Assembly: GCF_000243135.2 (NCBI RefSeq)
Contig: NC_019903.1
Coordinates: 2,828,001 to 2,892,000 of the forward strand
DNA from: Desulfitobacterium dichloroeliminans LMG P-21439
GTDB taxonomy: Bacteria > Bacillota > Desulfitobacteriia > Desulfitobacteriales > Desulfitobacteriaceae
Direction of reading: 5' to 3'
DNA: 64,000 bases
Shown: one piece after another, positions 3,318 to 57,593 of the stretch
Numbering within the stretch: the stretch's first letter is position 1
Layout: every line of letters begins with the position of its first letter
The notes under the pieces: model-generated
The model's input: only the letters and a program-made list of their open reading frames with translations
The model's database searches: none
What the model was told of the DNA's origin: nothing
Translations under genes and position numbers: made by a program

Positions 3318-3704
3318 TTAATGGCCCTCCTCCGCTAGAAACGCTTCATATTCTGCGGCAGACATTAATCCATCTAGATCTTTCAAGTCATCCACTTCTA
3401 CTTTAACCAGCCAACCCTCGCCATAGGGATCATTATTCAGAAGTTCCGGAGAATCGAGGACCTCTTGATTAAATTCGATGACCTTGCCAGAGACTGATGA
3501 GATGATATCCGATACTGCCTTCACAGACTCCACCGTTCCATAAGCTTGCCCAGTTACCACGGTCGTATCGTTCTCCGGTAACTCAACAAAAACTACATCC
3601 CCCAAGCTCTCTTGGGCATGTTCCGTGATTCCTAAAACTACCGTATTTCCTTCTACCTTAGTCCACTCATGAGATTTGCTGTACTTTAATTCCACTGGAT
3701 TCAT
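3318..3704 (-). CDS. gcvH: glycine cleavage system H protein (lipoyl carrier)
   Basis: A 128-residue lipoyl carrier that shuttles the aminomethyl group between P, T and L proteins. The lipoylated lysine is K62 in ESVKAVSD. A longer reading frame extends to 3767, but the ATG at 3704 has AAGGAGG 8 nt upstream and gives the standard family N-terminus [14 protein letters not shown], so I chose it. It lies between gcvT and gcvPA in the riboswitch-controlled operon. The matching L protein is probably encoded by lpdA at 40 kb. Confidence 0.96.
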
Positions 3705-4953: not shown

Positions 4954-4990
4954 AAAAAAACAGAGGGAATAACGCGTCGCGTTACCTCTG
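4954..4990 (-). terminator. riboswitch expression-platform terminator
   Basis: Stem CAGAGG/CCTCTG plus an inner AACGCG/CGCGTT pairing, followed on the minus strand by seven T. It lies between the glycine aptamers and gcvT and so is the likely regulated terminator; glycine binding would favour read-through, as known for this class. Confidence 0.85.
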
Positions 4991-5160
4991 TCCTTTAACC
5001 TGAGAGATTACCTTGCGGCTACCCCTTTGGTGTTCTCATCTGAGAAGCTCTCCAGAGTTTCGTCTTCCAGCAGTACTTTTGCCTGAGAGTTTCCCCCAGA
5101 ATAGATGCGACATTCTGGCCGTTTCTCCTTCGGCGCTCACCTATGAGTCTCTCCTACTGG
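4991..5160 (-). promoter_or_regulatory. tandem glycine riboswitch
   Basis: On the minus strand two aptamers follow each other. The first has GGAGAGACTC near 5150 and closes with AAACTCTCAGGC near 5085; the second has CTCTGGAGAGC near 5050 and closes with GTAATCTCTCAGG near 5000. These GGAGAG...CTCTCAGG pairs are the hallmark of glycine riboswitches. A terminator follows at once, then gcvT. The 375-bp gap between gcvT and the transducer gene is otherwise promoter sequence. Confidence 0.95.
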
Positions 5161-5278
5161 AATCATTCGAAACCTATTCGATTATCTGCTTTCATTATAG
5201 TCAGCTAATGGAGATTCGTCTACACCATTGCCCCTATATTCTAATAATTATTATGTAGAATCAACGATGGTCTACCTC

Positions 5279-9222: not shown

Positions 9223-9254
9223 AAAAATCCCAATCCCCAAAAAAGGGACGGGAT
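9223..9254 (-). terminator. T-box regulated terminator
   Basis: ATCCC and TCCC pair with GGGGA and GGGAT, followed on the minus strand by six T. The 5' side would pair with the T-box in the antiterminator. Confidence 0.85.
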
Positions 9255-9470
9255 ATTACTCGCGATACCACCCTTGTTGCCGGTTGTCCCAGCCACTCGG
9301 AGTCCTTTAACGGGGACGAGGCGGAAGGCTTACTCAAAGTTTCAGCACTTCACTCAAAGGGGATACTCCTTGGTTCACCTCACAGGCTTTCACCATCTCC
9401 TGCTCGCTATAGAGGCTCCATTCAAGGACAGTCCTTTTCAACGCTCTTAATTATTTAGCATTATGATACA
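9223..9470 (-). promoter_or_regulatory. T-box leader (Ile) of ileS
   Basis: Minus strand carries AGGGTGGTATCGCGAG (complement of 9259-9274), the T-box that pairs with the tRNA acceptor end. Upstream a specifier ATC (Ile) occurs in GGAGTATCCCC near 9365. A terminator stem ATCCC.TCCC/GGGGA..GGGAT with a T6 tail lies at 9223-9254. This fills the gap between ileS and the next gene. Confidence 0.92.
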
Positions 9471-25525: not shown

Positions 25526-26635
25526 TTATTTCCAAGCAGTGTCCAGGCAAACCTTGACAATTTTCTCTAGCGCATCCGGTTGCCCTGACTTCCGAGCAGA
25601 ACGAGACATCTCTGCTAATTGCTCAGGGTTTTCCGCCAGGCCTTGAATCACTGCCCAAAGATTCTCACCGGTTAAATCCTGATCTAGAATCACACGAGCT
25701 GCGCCATCCTTTTCCAAAGCCCGCGCATTAAATTCTTGATGGTTTTCGGCAGCAAAGGGGTAAGGAATAAGTATCCCCGGTTTACCTGCCACCATGATTT
25801 CCGCTAAGGTCGTAGCCCCAGCCCGCCCCACGAATAAATCAGCACAAGCCAGTGCTTCAGGCATAGCCTTAAGATATTCTAATATCCGCCAGTTCTCTCT
25901 TTGCCACTGAATTCCTTCAGCCTTTAAAGTCTCCACAGTCTCCTGATAGGTTGCTTTGCCTGTAGCCCAAATCACTTGAATCTCCGGATGATTTGCTAAC
26001 TGCCTGAGTACCTTAGGCATGGCTTGGTTAATACTGCGTGCACCCCGACTGCCTCCTGTCACGAGCAAGGTCAAATGCTCAGGACGTAATCCCAAACAAT
26101 CTGCCCCTTTTTGCCGGGATATACTTCCGATCTCGGGACGCACCGGGAGACCGGTTAAGATCAATTTCTTGCGCACACCAAAGTGAGCAATGCTTTCCGG
26201 GAAGGTTACCATCACCTTGCGCACAAAACGGGTGAGGATTTTATTGGTGATACCCGGCAAGGCATTCTGTTCATGAAGCAAGGTCGGAATCCCAAATAAG
26301 GCCGCGGTCAATACCACAGGCCCTGATACATATCCTCCGGTTCCGACAACGAGATCCGGTTTATACTTCTTGAGAATCTCTTTTGTCTCCCACAAGGCCT
26401 TGATTGTTTTGCCCCCTACCTTGAGCGTATCCAGGCTAATTTTGCGGGGAAGCCCTTGCCCCGACACCCCTTTAAAGCTAATTCCGGCTTCAGGAACTAG
26501 GCGTGCTTCCATGCCTTCTCGTGTACCCACATAGAGGATTTCACTATCCGGTACTTTGGCGAGAATCCCCTTCGCAATCGCTAGGGCTGGGTAAATATGG
26601 CCGCCTGTTCCTCCACCTGTGACAATCACACGCAT
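25526..26635 (-). CDS. murG: MurG lipid II synthase
   Basis: A 369-residue GT28 glycosyltransferase that adds GlcNAc to lipid I on the inner membrane face. The N-terminal loop is TGGGTGGHIYPALAIA, with GTGGYVSGPVVLTAAL and the UDP-GlcNAc site FVGRAGATTLAEIMVAGKP. AAGGAG precedes the ATG. A 778-bp gap with two palindromic repeats separates it from ftsW. Confidence 0.97.
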   Translation of the reverse strand: MRVIVTGGGTGGHIYPALAIAKGILAKVPDSEILYVGTREGMEARLVPEAGISFKGVSGQGLPRKISLDTLKVGGKTIKALWETKEILKKYKPDLVVGTGGYVSGPVVLTAALFGIPTLLHEQNALPGITNKILTRFVRKVMVTFPESIAHFGVRKKLILTGLPVRPEIGSISRQKGADCLGLRPEHLTLLVTGGSRGARSINQAMPKVLRQLANHPEIQVIWATGKATYQETVETLKAEGIQWQRENWRILEYLKAMPEALACADLFVGRAGATTLAEIMVAGKPGILIPYPFAAENHQEFNARALEKDGAARVILDQDLTGENLWAVIQGLAENPEQLAEMSRSARKSGQPDALEKIVKVCLDTAWK

Positions 26636-26724
26636 GGAATTGTTGCTCCTTTCGTTGGTTCGCGGTTCTTGGGTCTTCGTTTCTTGGAATTCTTTTAAGT
26701 ATTGTCTCCAGGATTTTGCTATAC

Positions 26725-26887
26725 GCGGTCACTCCGTAAGCTGCGCGGACCAATCTAATCGCTCAAGCCCTCCGCTCCGTCCGGTTCCCGCCCAAATCGC
26801 TCCTGCTCAATGGGCGGTTGGAAACGTCCTGTTTCCAACCCGACTCCGCTGCGTGCTTTTCGCGAAGATTGGTTTCCGCTCGCTTAG
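26725..26887 (+). repeat. palindromic dispersed repeat, copy A
   Basis: Copy A aligns along its whole length with the reverse complement of copy C at 54933-55140. A perfect 10-bp hairpin (GGTTGGAAAC/GTTTCCAACC, 26816-26840) is followed by CCGACTCCGCTGCGTGC, also in C. Outer arms ACCAATCT (26749-26756) and AGATTGGT (26866-26873) pair, while C has ACCCGTTCT/AGAACGGGT at the same place. Confidence 0.85.
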
Positions 26888-27098
26888 AAGGCGTTCCCTG
26901 CTGTATATCAAAATCCTTGGGTCTTCTTTTAAGTATATGCTCGAGTTGCCTTTGGGGTACTGCTGATGAACTGCAAAGAATCCAATATAACTGCAAGAAC
27001 CCCAAGAACTCTTTAAAGCTGCTTAGAACTTTTCACAAGAATTGCCAACAAGAATCTCATGCAAATCTTGAAAGTATTCTCCAGCCTTTCTGCGAAGT

Positions 27099-27374
27099 GA
27101 GTTGCGATTACAGAAAGCGAGGTTTCTACGGGAGCAGCCCGCAAACTTGGGCTAAACTGCACCCCAGACAGCGGGGCGGGCAACATGGATGTTGCACGCC
27201 GCCTAGTGAGCCAGGGATGGCGATTTAGGCAGCGAAATCCGGATGAGGATTTCGGCCAAGCCGCACGCCACAAAGGATGACCTATCGGCGCAGGTTACCC
27301 GCCCGCTCGCACGAGGCAGTTTGGCCCTTAGTTTGCTCTGCGAGCGTAATTTCCGAGCGTCTGTAACGCAACTC
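27099..27374 (+). repeat. palindromic dispersed repeat, copy B
   Basis: Outer arms GAGTTGCGATTACAG (27099-27113) and CTGTAACGCAACTC (27361-27374) pair with one bulge. Inside, hairpin GCAAC/GTTGC (27180-27195) is followed by GGATGGCGATTTAG (27215-27228), the same order as in copy C. It lies 40 bp past the ftsW stop. Confidence 0.8.
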
Positions 27375-27413
27375 TATTGCACAAAATCTCTCGAAAGAAT
27401 GTCCCAGTCGACT

Positions 27414-28508
27414 TTATCGCGACTCCCGCGAAATATTCAACAGCACCCCAACTCCTACCATTGTAAATACCAGCGAAGTGCCTCCATAACTTAGAAAGGG
27501 TAACGTAATTCCCGTGACCGGGAGTACACCGCTGACCACGCCCATATTGATCATGGCCTGGATGGATACCATTGAAGTGAGGCCAACTGCCAGAAAACCG
27601 GTAAAGGGGTCCGGTGCCCCCATGGCTACTCGAAATCCTCGCCAGGCAAACAAGAAGAAGAGCAAAATTACGATGGTGGCTCCCACAAAGCCCAGTTCTT
27701 CCCCTATCATGGCAAAGATAAAATCTGTATGATTTTCCGGAAGATAGAGGAACTTCTGCTTGCTTTGCCCAAGACCTAGGCCGAAAAGGCCTCCCGGTCC
27801 CAAAGCTAGCAAGGCTTGAATCGTCTGATATCCCTTGCCAGAAGGATCTGCCCATGGATCCAGGAAGGCGAAGATGCGATTCATTCGATAAGGTGCCGTG
27901 GCAATCGCCGCCACGACCAAAGCGATACCTGCGCCGCCCAAAGCCACAATATGGCTTGCCTTGGCACCTGCCGCTATAAGCATAAAGAAAGTCGTACCGG
28001 CAATGGCGAGAGTTGTCCCCAAGTCGGGTTGAAGCATAATGAGCCCTGCCACAAGGCCAAGCAGACCAAGCACAGGAAGCAAACCTTTGCGAAAAGATTT
28101 TATCTTATGGGGGTCAGCCGATAAGATACTGGCCATTACCAAAACCATGGTTAATTTAATAACCTCTGACGGCTGGATCGACAAAGGACCAAGACCTATC
28201 CAGCGGTCAGCACCATTAACTCGACGTCCGATTCCGGGTATCTTAACCATAATTAAGAGGACAATAGCCATAATGAGGGCCGGTTTTGCCCATCGGCGCA
28301 ATAACTGCAAATCAAAGCGCATTGCCAAAATCATCGCCACTAACCCAATGGTAACCCAAATCACCTCCATCTTCAAAAAGTGATAAGGATCATCATACAT
28401 CACATATCCTTTAACTGCACTCGAACTATAGACCATGACGGTTCCTATAGCAAGGAGCGCTAGGATTGCTCCCAGTAGGACTAAATCAGGGCGACGACGT
28501 CTTGGCAT
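27414..28508 (-). CDS. ftsW: FtsW/SpoVE lipid II polymerase (SEDS family)
   Basis: A 364-residue SEDS glycosyltransferase with about ten membrane segments. Signatures are GIGRRVNGADRWIGLGPLSI, VMLQPDLGTT-like AGLIMLQPDLGTTLAIAG, and PENHTDFIFAMIGEELGF. The C-terminus SYGGTSLVFTMVGVGVLLNI is complete. A TTG at 28529 lies in the ribosome site; ATG 28508 is 8 nt past GGGGG. FtsW or SpoVE cannot be told apart by sequence alone. Confidence 0.95.
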   Translation of the reverse strand: MPRRRRPDLVLLGAILALLAIGTVMVYSSSAVKGYVMYDDPYHFLKMEVIWVTIGLVAMILAMRFDLQLLRRWAKPALIMAIVLLIMVKIPGIGRRVNGADRWIGLGPLSIQPSEVIKLTMVLVMASILSADPHKIKSFRKGLLPVLGLLGLVAGLIMLQPDLGTTLAIAGTTFFMLIAAGAKASHIVALGGAGIALVVAAIATAPYRMNRIFAFLDPWADPSGKGYQTIQALLALGPGGLFGLGLGQSKQKFLYLPENHTDFIFAMIGEELGFVGATIVILLFFLFAWRGFRVAMGAPDPFTGFLAVGLTSMVSIQAMINMGVVSGVLPVTGITLPFLSYGGTSLVFTMVGVGVLLNISRESR

Positions 28509-28530
28509 TTCAAGTTCCCCCTTTGACAAT

Positions 28531-54932: not shown

Positions 54933-55140
54933 TAGCTTCTCACACAATAGTGAACGATTTTAAGCGAGCAGCTACCCGTTCTTCGCGAAAGCACGCAGCG
55001 GAGTCGGGTTGGAAACAGGACGTTTCCAACCCGCTAGAGAGCCAAGGATGGCGATTTAGCGGGGCACCCGACGAAGCGAAGAGCTTGAGCGTTAGAACGG
55101 GTGCGCGCAGCTTACGAAGTGAACGATGTGTGAGAAGCTA
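54933..55140 (-). repeat. palindromic dispersed repeat, copy C
   Basis: Terminal arms TAGCTTCTCACACA (54933-54946) and TGTGTGAGAAGCTA (55127-55140) are exact inverses. Inside are ACCCGTTCT (54974-54982) pairing with AGAACGGGT (55094-55102), and GGTTGGAAAC/GTTTCCAACC. Its reverse complement aligns with copy A; GGATGGCGATTTAG is shared with copy B. It lies 38 bp before the IS66 target duplication. Confidence 0.88.
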
Positions 55141-55185: not shown

Positions 55186-55217
55186 GTAAGCGTCAAACAA
55201 GTCGGTGTATAGAAAAA

Positions 55218-55250
55218 GGGTAAAAACCAGTATAAACTAAGTTTTTACCC
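55218..55250 (-). terminator. terminator of tnpC
   Basis: GGGTAAAAAC and GTTTTTACCC pair (10 bp), with a T-run on the minus strand; the stem overlaps the tnpC stop. Confidence 0.9.
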
Positions 55251-56785
55251 TATTTGCAGACAGCCTGTACATCTGGACTCCACGGCAGATAATCTTCAAG
55301 AAATTCTGGGTATTGACCGAACTGCACCCCGGGCAACTCTTTAAAGATGAAACAAAGATATTTATAGGGATTCAGGCCATTGGCCTTAGCCGCTTCAATC
55401 ATGCTGTAAACGGCAGCGCTAGCAGTTGCTCCTTTCGGGCTTCCACTAAACAGCCAGTTCTTTCGTCCGATCGTAAAGGGGCGGATGCTGTTTTCAGCTA
55501 AGTTGTTCGAGATGGAGCAGTTTCCATCCAACAGATAATTGATCAATTCCTGTTTATGGTTTATGGCGTAATTAAGAGCTTGCCCCAGTTTAGATTTAGG
55601 GAGAACCTTTTTCTTATTGTAATCTACCCATGCCCAAAAGGCCTCCAAAACAGGTTGCTCCTGTTTCAGACGCTCGGATTGTCGCTCTTCCCTTGAACAC
55701 CCTTCAAGAGTCTTCTCTATCTCAAAGAGCTCATTACAGAATCGAACTCCATCGCTTACCAAAGTGGCTTCCGGGCTATGGATATCCTTCGGCAGGGCAT
55801 CAACGAAATTCCTTCGAACATGAGCCCAGCACAGGCATCGCGTGATTCCCTCCACCTTTTGGTAGCCTGAGTAGGCATCCGAGTGGAGGTATCCCTTAAA
55901 TCCTTTCAGGAATTTCTGAGGATATTTACCACTTCTGCCTGGTTGGTACTCGAAGATCCGGATGGGATGCTTACAGTGTTTGCTCGTACTGTAAACCCAC
56001 ATGTAAGAATCCGTGGTATTCTTTCGGCCCTCTTCGTTGAGGACTTGAACCGGAGTTTCGTCAGCATGCAGGAAGTTTTCCTCCAAGAGCTTCTGATGCA
56101 TCCGTTGCAAAAGCGGGGTCAGCCAATCTCGGGCTGCGACCATGATCCAATTGGCCATGGTGGCACGGCTTAATTCAACGCCCAGCGTCTTCCACTCCTT
56201 TTCCTGACGGTACAGAGGAAGCGCGTTGACAAACTTCTGATGCATCACCCAAGCTACTGTGGAGGGAGATGCCATGGAGTGTTGAATGACTGGCGAAGGT
56301 ACAGGTGCTTTCTCCATATAGGGCAAGTTATTCTTACGGCAGCTACGGCACTCGAAGGTTTCGCGGTAAATATCGATTACTCTTACTTTTGCAGGGATGA
56401 ATTCAATTTCGGTTCTCACGAACTCTTCTCCCACAGAGACCAGTGTCGTCTGACACTCTTCGCAGGACCGGTCATCTTCTAAGAGAGTACAGAACCGCTT
56501 TTCATGGGGAAGGTCTTTCAAAAGTTCCTTACGCTGACCGTCGAATTTCTTTCTCTGGTACCCCTCGACTTGCTTAAGGTCCGGTTCCACAGCCTTAGGA
56601 TTAGATTCCGTTTCTGCTTCATCAAAAAGAGACATCTGTCCCACAGAAAGGACGGATGTCTTCTCAGAGCTTCGACCAAAGAGTTTACGGGTCAGATGAT
56701 GAACGGTTTCATGAAGAAGTTTGTTTTCCTTCTCTAGTTCGGTGATGCGGTTTTCAAGAGTTTTTACCGATTTTACTTCACTCAT
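55250..56785 (-). CDS. tnpC: IS66 transposase
   Basis: A 511-residue DDE transposase. A leucine-zipper-like N-terminus (about 10-40) is followed by zinc-finger pairs CEEC and CRSC (residues about 110-155). The catalytic triad is in HADETPVQV, LHSDAYSGYQ and NNLAENSIRPF, with the GRKNWLFSGSPKGA tail. A GTG at 56812 lacks a site; ATG 56785 follows AAGGA. Complete. Confidence 0.95.
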   Translation of the reverse strand: MSEVKSVKTLENRITELEKENKLLHETVHHLTRKLFGRSSEKTSVLSVGQMSLFDEAETESNPKAVEPDLKQVEGYQRKKFDGQRKELLKDLPHEKRFCTLLEDDRSCEECQTTLVSVGEEFVRTEIEFIPAKVRVIDIYRETFECRSCRKNNLPYMEKAPVPSPVIQHSMASPSTVAWVMHQKFVNALPLYRQEKEWKTLGVELSRATMANWIMVAARDWLTPLLQRMHQKLLEENFLHADETPVQVLNEEGRKNTTDSYMWVYSTSKHCKHPIRIFEYQPGRSGKYPQKFLKGFKGYLHSDAYSGYQKVEGITRCLCWAHVRRNFVDALPKDIHSPEATLVSDGVRFCNELFEIEKTLEGCSREERQSERLKQEQPVLEAFWAWVDYNKKKVLPKSKLGQALNYAINHKQELINYLLDGNCSISNNLAENSIRPFTIGRKNWLFSGSPKGATASAAVYSMIEAAKANGLNPYKYLCFIFKELPGVQFGQYPEFLEDYLPWSPDVQAVCK

Positions 56786-56875
56786 CAGCCCTAAATCCTT
56801 TGCGTTTCTCACTGCATTTAGTATAGCATGAAAACGCCATAAAGTCCAGTAACCATGCAGGTTTGGGCCATTTCT

Positions 56876-57238
56876 TTATACCGAAAAGCAGCCTGTGGAA
56901 TCCCACTTTTTCACGGCCTTAGGCTGATCAATAGACAGCCCTTCCATAAGCCAGCGGAATTCCTGGCGGGTAATCCCGCGAACTGCTTCAGCATTCTTGG
57001 GCCATTGGAATTTGCTCTTTTCAAGTCGCTTATACAGAAGAACAAAGCCATCCCCTTCCCAATAGAGTGCCTTCAGTCGATCATGCCGACGGCCACAAAA
57101 GAGAAACAAACTATTTTGAAAGGGGTTGAGCTGAAAGTTTTGCTGAACTAGGGCTGCCAGTCCGTCTATGGACTTACGCATGTCGGTATACCCGCAGGCG
57201 AGGTAGATTTTCTCGGCCTTAGAGATGTCACCGAACAT
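56876..57238 (-). CDS. tnpB: IS66 accessory protein TnpB
   Basis: A 120-residue protein typical of IS66 Orf2: YLACGYTDMRKSIDGLAALV, NSLFLFCGRRHDRLKALYWEGDGF as two blocks, and LLYKRLEKSKFQWP. Needed for transposition in IS66 family; role still debated. It overlaps tnpA by 11 bp. Confidence 0.95.
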   Translation of the reverse strand: MFGDISKAEKIYLACGYTDMRKSIDGLAALVQQNFQLNPFQNSLFLFCGRRHDRLKALYWEGDGFVLLYKRLEKSKFQWPKNAEAVRGITRQEFRWLMEGLSIDQPKAVKKWDSTGCFSV

Positions 57239-57593
57239 GTTGAAGTGCTCTAAGAGTATTCTCGATTAAGTTCAACGAGGCAGTGTTATGAATTTCTAGA
57301 CTTGCGGAATCTAAGCGAACCACGATCGCTGGTGACAAGGAATCTGTCGCCGGAGAACTGACCTGGGGAAGTGAAAAGGATACGGGTACGATAGAATTGT
57401 TTTCGTTTTGAAGTGCCGGAAGAGCCTCACAGGCGGCAGTGCGGACTCGTCTCAACCAATAGAAGTAACTACTTGGATGAATATTATGTTCAGCACACCA
57501 TGCGGAGACTGTTTGCCCACTGCTGCGACATTCACTAATAAGTCGAGTCCATTTCTTCAATCGATAGTTTTGTGTGACTTTCTGAGTATCCAC
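57228..57593 (-). CDS. tnpA: IS66 accessory protein TnpA
   Basis: A 121-residue protein with an N-terminal helix-turn-helix (KKWTRLISECRSSGQTVSAW; CAEHNIHPSSYFYWLRRV), the IS66 Orf1 type. GTG start after AGGAGG. Since mobB's terminator is broken by the insertion, mobB/moeA transcripts may run into this gene. Confidence 0.92.
   Translation of the reverse strand: MDTQKVTQNYRLKKWTRLISECRSSGQTVSAWCAEHNIHPSSYFYWLRRVRTAACEALPALQNENNSIVPVSFSLPQVSSPATDSLSPAIVVRLDSASLEIHNTASLNLIENTLRALQHVR

Follow-up and report, generated by a model that had tools for sequence, protein, structure and literature searches.

Conserved GGA loops in dispersed palindromic repeats of Desulfitobacterium dichloroeliminans suggest a diverged, TwoAYGGAY-type decoy for CsrA

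The window analysed here (64,000 nucleotides of the D. dichloroeliminans LMG P-21439 contig NC_019903.1) contains two minus-strand ORFs, which we read as murG and ftsW, and the region between them is occupied by two long imperfect palindromes, copy A and element B, lying head to head (Table 1). A sequence-only reading had placed a palindrome at 26725-26887; it is indeed present there, but this extent is too short, because the complementary ends AGGATTTTGCTATAC and GTATATCAAAATCCT carry the element to about 26705-26921. Folded as RNA, the minus strand of copy A (26700-26930) had a predicted energy of -99.7 kcal/mol (z -7.8), and 0 of 200 shuffled sequences folded as well; the plus strand gave -88.8 kcal/mol (z -7.2). 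No sigma-70-like promoter or terminator was found in 26500-27500. Rfam at its curated thresholds returned no match in the A/B region; its only matches elsewhere in the window were a glycine-GGAnGA riboswitch (4984-5170) and a T-box leader (9241-9450), both on the minus strand and just above their gathering scores.

Table 1. Features of the window discussed in the text (R1, covariance model of the repeat core).
Feature	Position	Strand	Description
murG-like ORF	25526..26635	minus	3' side of copy A
Copy A	26705..26921	minus (GA-rich strand)	long imperfect hairpin, three-way junction, terminal GGA loops ACAGGACGT and GCAGGAGC; ftsW-murG intergenic
Copy A core	26737..26886	minus	R1 positions 1-152, 173.5 bits
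Element B	27099..27374	plus	long hairpin of A's structural family, facing A head to head; GGA loops CATGGATG, CAGGGATG, CCGGATGAGG and GGATGACC
ftsW-like ORF	27414..28529	minus	far side of element B
Copy C	54935..55140	plus	A-type inner part (R1, 153.1 bits) enclosed by a different kind of outer stem, TAGCTTCTCACACA / TGTGTGAGAAGCTA

Copy A had been described as aligning end to end, in opposite orientation, with a copy C whose outer arms differ while each still pairs. A blastn search of the intergenic region against the window recovered this inverted alignment (26726-26899 versus 55125-54949, 80.6% over 180 columns, E 2e-34), and copy C was the sole strong inverted partner of copy A in the window. 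The differing arms pair as described, with ACCAATCT/AGATTGGT at 26749 and 26866 in copy A and ACCCGTTCT/AGAACGGGT at 54974 and 55094 in copy C, and the GGA loops of copy C are ACAGGACGT and CAAGGATG. Both copies score end to end with R1, of which both are training sequences. Copy C looks like an A-type core enclosed by an outer stem similar to that of B2, a second type of head-to-head partner that is common in the related genomes G002 and G003 (for example at loci L128 and L129, about 3360-3640, in G003), with the outer stem GCGTAGCTTTACGCACA or similar. The B2 partner had no GGA loop in the two loci found by pattern among nine searched, which a CsrA reading leaves unexplained. Copy C adjoins an insertion sequence with three ORFs (window 55190-57593), presumably IS66-type transposition genes; at the corresponding place, G003 has an A-type copy in opposite orientation and a B-type partner without the insertion sequence.

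The repeat is dispersed over the genome and its relatives. By blastn, copy A matched 23 places in its own genome (G000; 3.62 Mb, one contig), some of which are halves of elements with long central insertions. R1, which was built from 25 cores and applied at E <= 0.01 to the best 150 first-look candidates per genome, found at least 20 copies in G000 and, in six related genomes, dispersed copies ranging from at least 17 to at least 78 each (at least 54 in G002, 78 in G003, 23 in G009, 17 in G010, 27 in G032 and 47 in G019). Copies were present by blastn in 16 of 61 genomes, comprising G000 and relatives, all of one family. Searched against named genomes, a 21-base pattern from the first hairpin hit 21 stretches. 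Eighteen belong to Desulfosporosinus (sp. BG, BRH_c37, palsa_1189, OKU5 and metallidurans) and to a pair of Bacillota/Clostridiales bins; three, from two Bacteroidia and one beta-proteobacterium, look like chance and lack the remainder of the element within 450 bases. The element was absent from the viral contigs and the plasmid and phage collections searched, and a phage or plasmid origin was rejected on these zero matches. All 52 copies examined were intergenic, and a protein-coding function was rejected, as 0 of 52 overlapped an ORF of at least 150 aa by more than 30 bases, shorter ORFs overlapping a copy having been removed beforehand. Every A-type place of G000 falls within 2.72-3.56 Mb or 0.05-0.58 Mb of the contig; an origin-proximal bias was dropped because the copies of G003 are spread over its chromosome.

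The sequence-only reading had attributed the compensated arms to selection on structure, in RNA or single-stranded DNA, and had proposed a covariance model of all genomic copies with a test for covariation. A model-fitted alignment of 77 distinct copies (A2) had 3603 cells, 95.5% of them paired, and 43 of 49 base pairs had changed on both sides, values reached by 0 of 500 shuffles; controls with the structure slid along the alignment were 29-43% paired. Since a model-fitted alignment favours the structure, we also counted a plain, sequence-only MAFFT alignment (A1, 25 rows), in which 92.5% of cells were paired and 22 of 49 pairs were doubly changed; 19 of 500 shuffles reached its number of pair types and none reached the other four measures. 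RNAalifold on a sequence-only alignment, from which three sequences with long insertions or truncation were left out, returned only part of the structure because the arms are slightly misaligned. Copies whose arms no longer pair, which would speak against such selection, did not appear: helix 3, the stem formed by the arms in question, was paired in 98.8% of cells over the 77 distinct copies, with changes on both sides at 8 of its 8 pairs. Covariation was also assessed with a tree-aware test resembling R-scape, though not R-scape itself, in which substitutions were re-placed on a FastTree tree and a G statistic with background correction was compared with 60 or 100 null alignments. The significant column pairs numbered 4 of 10731 in a sequence-only alignment of 51 copies (two long sequences and identical cores left out) and 7 of 10585 in a model-fitted alignment of 111 copies, and every one of them (4/4 and 7/7) fell within the predicted structure. 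Covariation is strong, and together with the compensated pairs in the copies these tests support the attribution to selection on structure. G-U accounted for 107 of 5345 cells; in a comparison of G-U with A-C, intended to tell RNA from DNA, G-U was the more frequent by cells (107 versus 47), but there was no bias by column pairs (30 versus 26).

The predicted fold of the GA-rich strand consists of a long stem interrupted by internal loops with GA on both sides, a three-way junction and two hairpins, the first with a stem of eight pairs. Of 111 distinct rows, 107 carry GGA in loop 1 and 109 carry it in loop 2; the one row with GGA in neither is a truncated match. The commonest form of loop 1 is AGGAC (85/111), the rest being mostly AAGGAT, AGGGAT, ACGGAT and similar, and loop 2 is AGGA in 66/111, the rest being mostly AAGGAT, ATGGAC, AAGGAC and longer forms. 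The internal loops were counted in 110 rows, leaving out one truncated row. In the loop below hairpin 2, GA stands on both strands in 96/110 copies with Watson-Crick closure in 0/110, and the tandem GA known from TwoAYGGAY is seen in the TTGA/GATT and GGA/GGA loops, with GA on both strands in 96/110 and 69/110. The GA/GCA, GGA/GGA and TTGA/GATT loops were perfectly closed in 0/110 copies each, while GAAAA/TTGA was closed in 12/110 and GCA/GGA in 4/110. Variable stems combined with fixed mismatches and with loop letters fixed on one strand are the pattern that selection on the folded strand predicts.

These features link the repeat to TwoAYGGAY (RF01731, clan CL00106). The entry for this motif in Weinberg 2010 (PMC2864571) describes a probable RNA, probably not cis-regulatory, from the human gut, gamma-proteobacteria and Clostridiales, and PMC4333381 notes its tandem GA and predicts, from motifs alone, a CsrA-binding sRNA; we found no validation of that prediction in the open-access literature searched. 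The copies of the window fall below the RF01731 cut-off of 43 bits, G000 has 0 matches, and copy A had no match at E<=5. Element B gave a partial match at 27176-27230 (23.8 bits), close to its R1 match at 27177-27232 (22.6 bits). A homologous copy in G032 (C11:122443-122652), found with the window query by blastn (E 2e-24, 74% identity), scored 48.8 bits with RF01731 and spanned the whole model, and at another relative's locus, L102, element B scored 44.8 bits and the A copy 34.2 bits over the whole model. In the reverse search, R1 recovered loci that pass the cut-off with RF01731, most of them with E between 1e-8 and 1e-14, its training copies including L105, which is the G032 copy. Because the G032 homologue links both searches, the repeats are related to TwoAYGGAY by descent, the copies of this genus apparently having drifted below the cut-off; and because the window copies score below it and the G032 homologue above, we file them as a diverged relative and not as a member at threshold. 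We regard a relation to the TwoAYGGAY structure as near certain, and take the repeats to be a diverged, amplified branch of this structured-RNA family. Of the AYGGAY loops themselves, copy A (AGGAC, AGGA) keeps GGA but not AYGGAY; copy C has AGGAC and AAGGAT, and element B has ATGGAT, which fits, and AGGGAT.

The elements carry several GGA hairpin loops each, as in CsrB-type decoys, and G000 has one csrA (PF02599 at G000:C1:2956889-2957044), the cognate protein that a decoy RNA requires. In the class set (62 genomes, each 90% complete or better), the RNA was found in 32 of 55 CsrA-positive and 0 of 7 CsrA-negative genomes (Fisher p 0.004, ignoring phylogeny; G000, G002 and G003 are positive by blastn only, and the CsrA-negative G064 lay outside the blastn search). 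Within the family the counts were 26 of 29 and 0 of 6 (Fisher p 5e-5, likewise ignoring phylogeny). A set of 61 genomes, overlapping with the class set and scored for RF01731 at E <= 0.001 or an A-type copy by blastn, had the RNA in 32 of its 50 CsrA-bearing genomes and in 1 of the 11 that lack CsrA (Fisher p 0.001, again ignoring phylogeny), the exception, G013, being a partial match in a genome 83% complete. The CsrA-negative genomes come from several genera (g2, g4, g5 and g6 of family f1 and g15 of family f3), and 23 of the 55 CsrA-positive genomes of the class had no such RNA at the thresholds used. A review (PMC7652899) gives the CsrB repeat as CAGGA(U/A/C)G, which loop 1 of copies A and C, ACAGGACGT, matches. 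The best-studied CsrA sites have an ANGGAN hexaloop; SELEX sites favoured short stems (PMC7652899). The conservation of these motifs supports the published prediction that TwoAYGGAY would bind CsrA, and the co-occurrence with CsrA is independent genomic support for it; binding of CsrA by the GGA hairpins is likely on the model considered below.

To the 5' side of many copies lies another long hairpin in opposite orientation. The A+B cluster between murG and ftsW is shared by G000, G002, G009 and G003, the last of which has two B elements, and no element lies between the two genes in G008, G016, G020 and G025 of the same family. Because the cluster is shared at this site, where it has persisted vertically, it was probably inherited from before the split of two genera. 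The counterparts in G003 of five G000 sites were one A+B cluster, one A-type copy in opposite orientation with a B-type partner, one fused remnant, one outer-stem scar and one empty site; most sites thus appear old, since only one of the five is empty and the others are occupied or hold remnants. At L155 (2990-3660), an inverted A-type pair of G000 corresponds to a single fused element in G003 (G003:C1:3753100-3753290), as if recombination within the pair had deleted the middle. Relative to the neighbouring genes of 52 copies, the GA strand runs along both in 18, against both in 19, convergently in 9 and divergently in 4, with one side unknown in 2; since it lies as often against as along genes, a separate promoter would be required for many copies.

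Several explanations other than a trans-acting RNA were weighed. BIMEs consist of REP palindromes in inverted pairs, dispersed in intergenic regions, and a comparable DNA-level repeat, MITE- or BIME-like, could act or spread as single-stranded DNA or a cruciform, with RNA irrelevant. The high dispersed copy number in seven genomes, the strictly intergenic position, the head-to-head pairs resembling those of REPs, the lack of strand bias to genes, the missing promoter and the few G-U pairs would all fit, and the GA strand of copy A folds well as DNA too (-55.7, z -7.9, versus -47.1, z -6.5, for the plus strand). Looked at as a possible MITE, the element has outer arms that are inverted repeats, and of the five sites compared with G003 one is empty, one a scar, one a fused remnant and two occupied; no target duplication was recognised, and most of these sites are old. 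A Y1/RAYT transposase (PF01797) had 0 matches in G000, while the control matched in 5 of 14 genomes, and mobilisation by RAYT or IS200/IS605 was rejected because G000 has no Y1 transposase. As a purely mobile repeat would leave the conserved GGA loops and the co-occurrence with CsrA unexplained, we consider this explanation unlikely.

We give still less weight to the possibility that mutation alone compensated the arms, template switching within a quasipalindrome copying arm onto arm with no function needed. Stems do change in blocks (for example ACCAATCT, ACCCGTTCT and ACAAAACT, each with a partner arm that fits it), and almost every change is exactly Watson-Crick, G-U being rare; yet such copying would erase mismatches, whereas the GA/GCA, GGA/GGA and TTGA/GATT loops are never closed, and GGA is kept in the loops while their flanks vary. 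The conserved mismatched GA loops therefore argue against arm-to-arm copying as the sole cause, although it may add to selection. Equally improbable is a cis-acting element of operon mRNAs, such as a processing site, stability hairpin or attenuator in the ftsW-murG transcript, in which copy A is sense. The retention of the A+B cluster in four genomes and the 3' end of A, near the next gene in most copies, would suit it. Yet 19 of the 50 copies flanked by called genes on both sides have their GA strand antisense to each neighbour, the murG-ftsW interval lacks the element in four other genomes of the family, and the TwoAYGGAY entry in Weinberg 2010 (PMC2864571) marks the motif as probably not cis-regulatory.

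The reading we favour, and hold to be rather probable, is that the diverged TwoAYGGAY repeats act through their GA strand as RNA, forming a dispersed decoy that titrates CsrA. The GA-rich strand, which is the minus strand in copy A and the plus strand in B and C, would be transcribed and would fold into the long stem with tandem-GA internal loops, ending in two side-by-side GGA-loop hairpins that would most likely bind a CsrA dimer; many loci could then jointly titrate CsrA, as CsrB and RsmZ do in gamma-proteobacteria. The two exposed GGA loops of the palindrome suggest that CsrA is soaked up in this way; transcription, binding and titration are what we infer. Against the decoy stand the A-type loops, mostly AGGAC and AGGA and thus shorter than ANGGAN, the eight-pair stem of hairpin 1 set against the short stems of SELEX sites, the missing promoter and terminator at the locus, the rarity of G-U pairs and the random orientation of the GA strand. 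A more tentative version, which we think possible although doubtful, is that the decoy, instead of being a single RNA gene, is an interspersed repeat spread over the whole genome: tens of intergenic TwoAYGGAY-type hairpins, often in head-to-head pairs that place one GA strand in sense either way, would couple free CsrA to total read-through transcription. Palindromic repeats in these genomes, easily dismissed as junk, may be regulatory RNA, and organisms with dozens of natural variants bearing comparable GGA loops make the CsrA question directly testable.

The repeats resemble several known systems in part. In gamma-proteobacteria, where CsrA antagonist RNAs are established, CsrB, CsrC, RsmX, RsmY and RsmZ come from a small number of loci, each of them rich in sites. 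The repeats share with them the repeated GGA hairpins, and loop 1 fits the CsrB repeat; unlike them, they have two putative CsrA sites per locus (four in B) at many loci that would have to be transcribed. They are likewise dispersed intergenic hairpins in inverted pairs, as are the REP/BIME palindromes associated with RAYT, but they are several times longer, their GGA loops are conserved and G000 has no Y1 transposase. For the firmicute B. subtilis, the review (PMC7652899) describes the protein FliW with regard to CsrA antagonism. The reverse strand of the Bacillaceae-1 RNA (RF01690) has likewise been predicted to act as a CsrA decoy through two GGA hairpins (PMC4333381); it differs in its hosts, and cmscan gave no match to it in the region. 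We found no description of the amplification of such repeats in the open-access literature searched, and titles and abstract openings on Desulfitobacterium palindromic repeats gave none; what this work adds is the amplification to dispersed copies, their head-to-head pairing and the co-occurrence with CsrA. The closest likeness is to TwoAYGGAY, with its long stem, two neighbouring GGA-loop hairpins and tandem-GA internal loops; in contrast to that motif, the A-type loops are mostly AGGAC or AGGA instead of AYGGAY, the outer stem is longer, and the repeats occur as tens of dispersed copies, often in head-to-head pairs.
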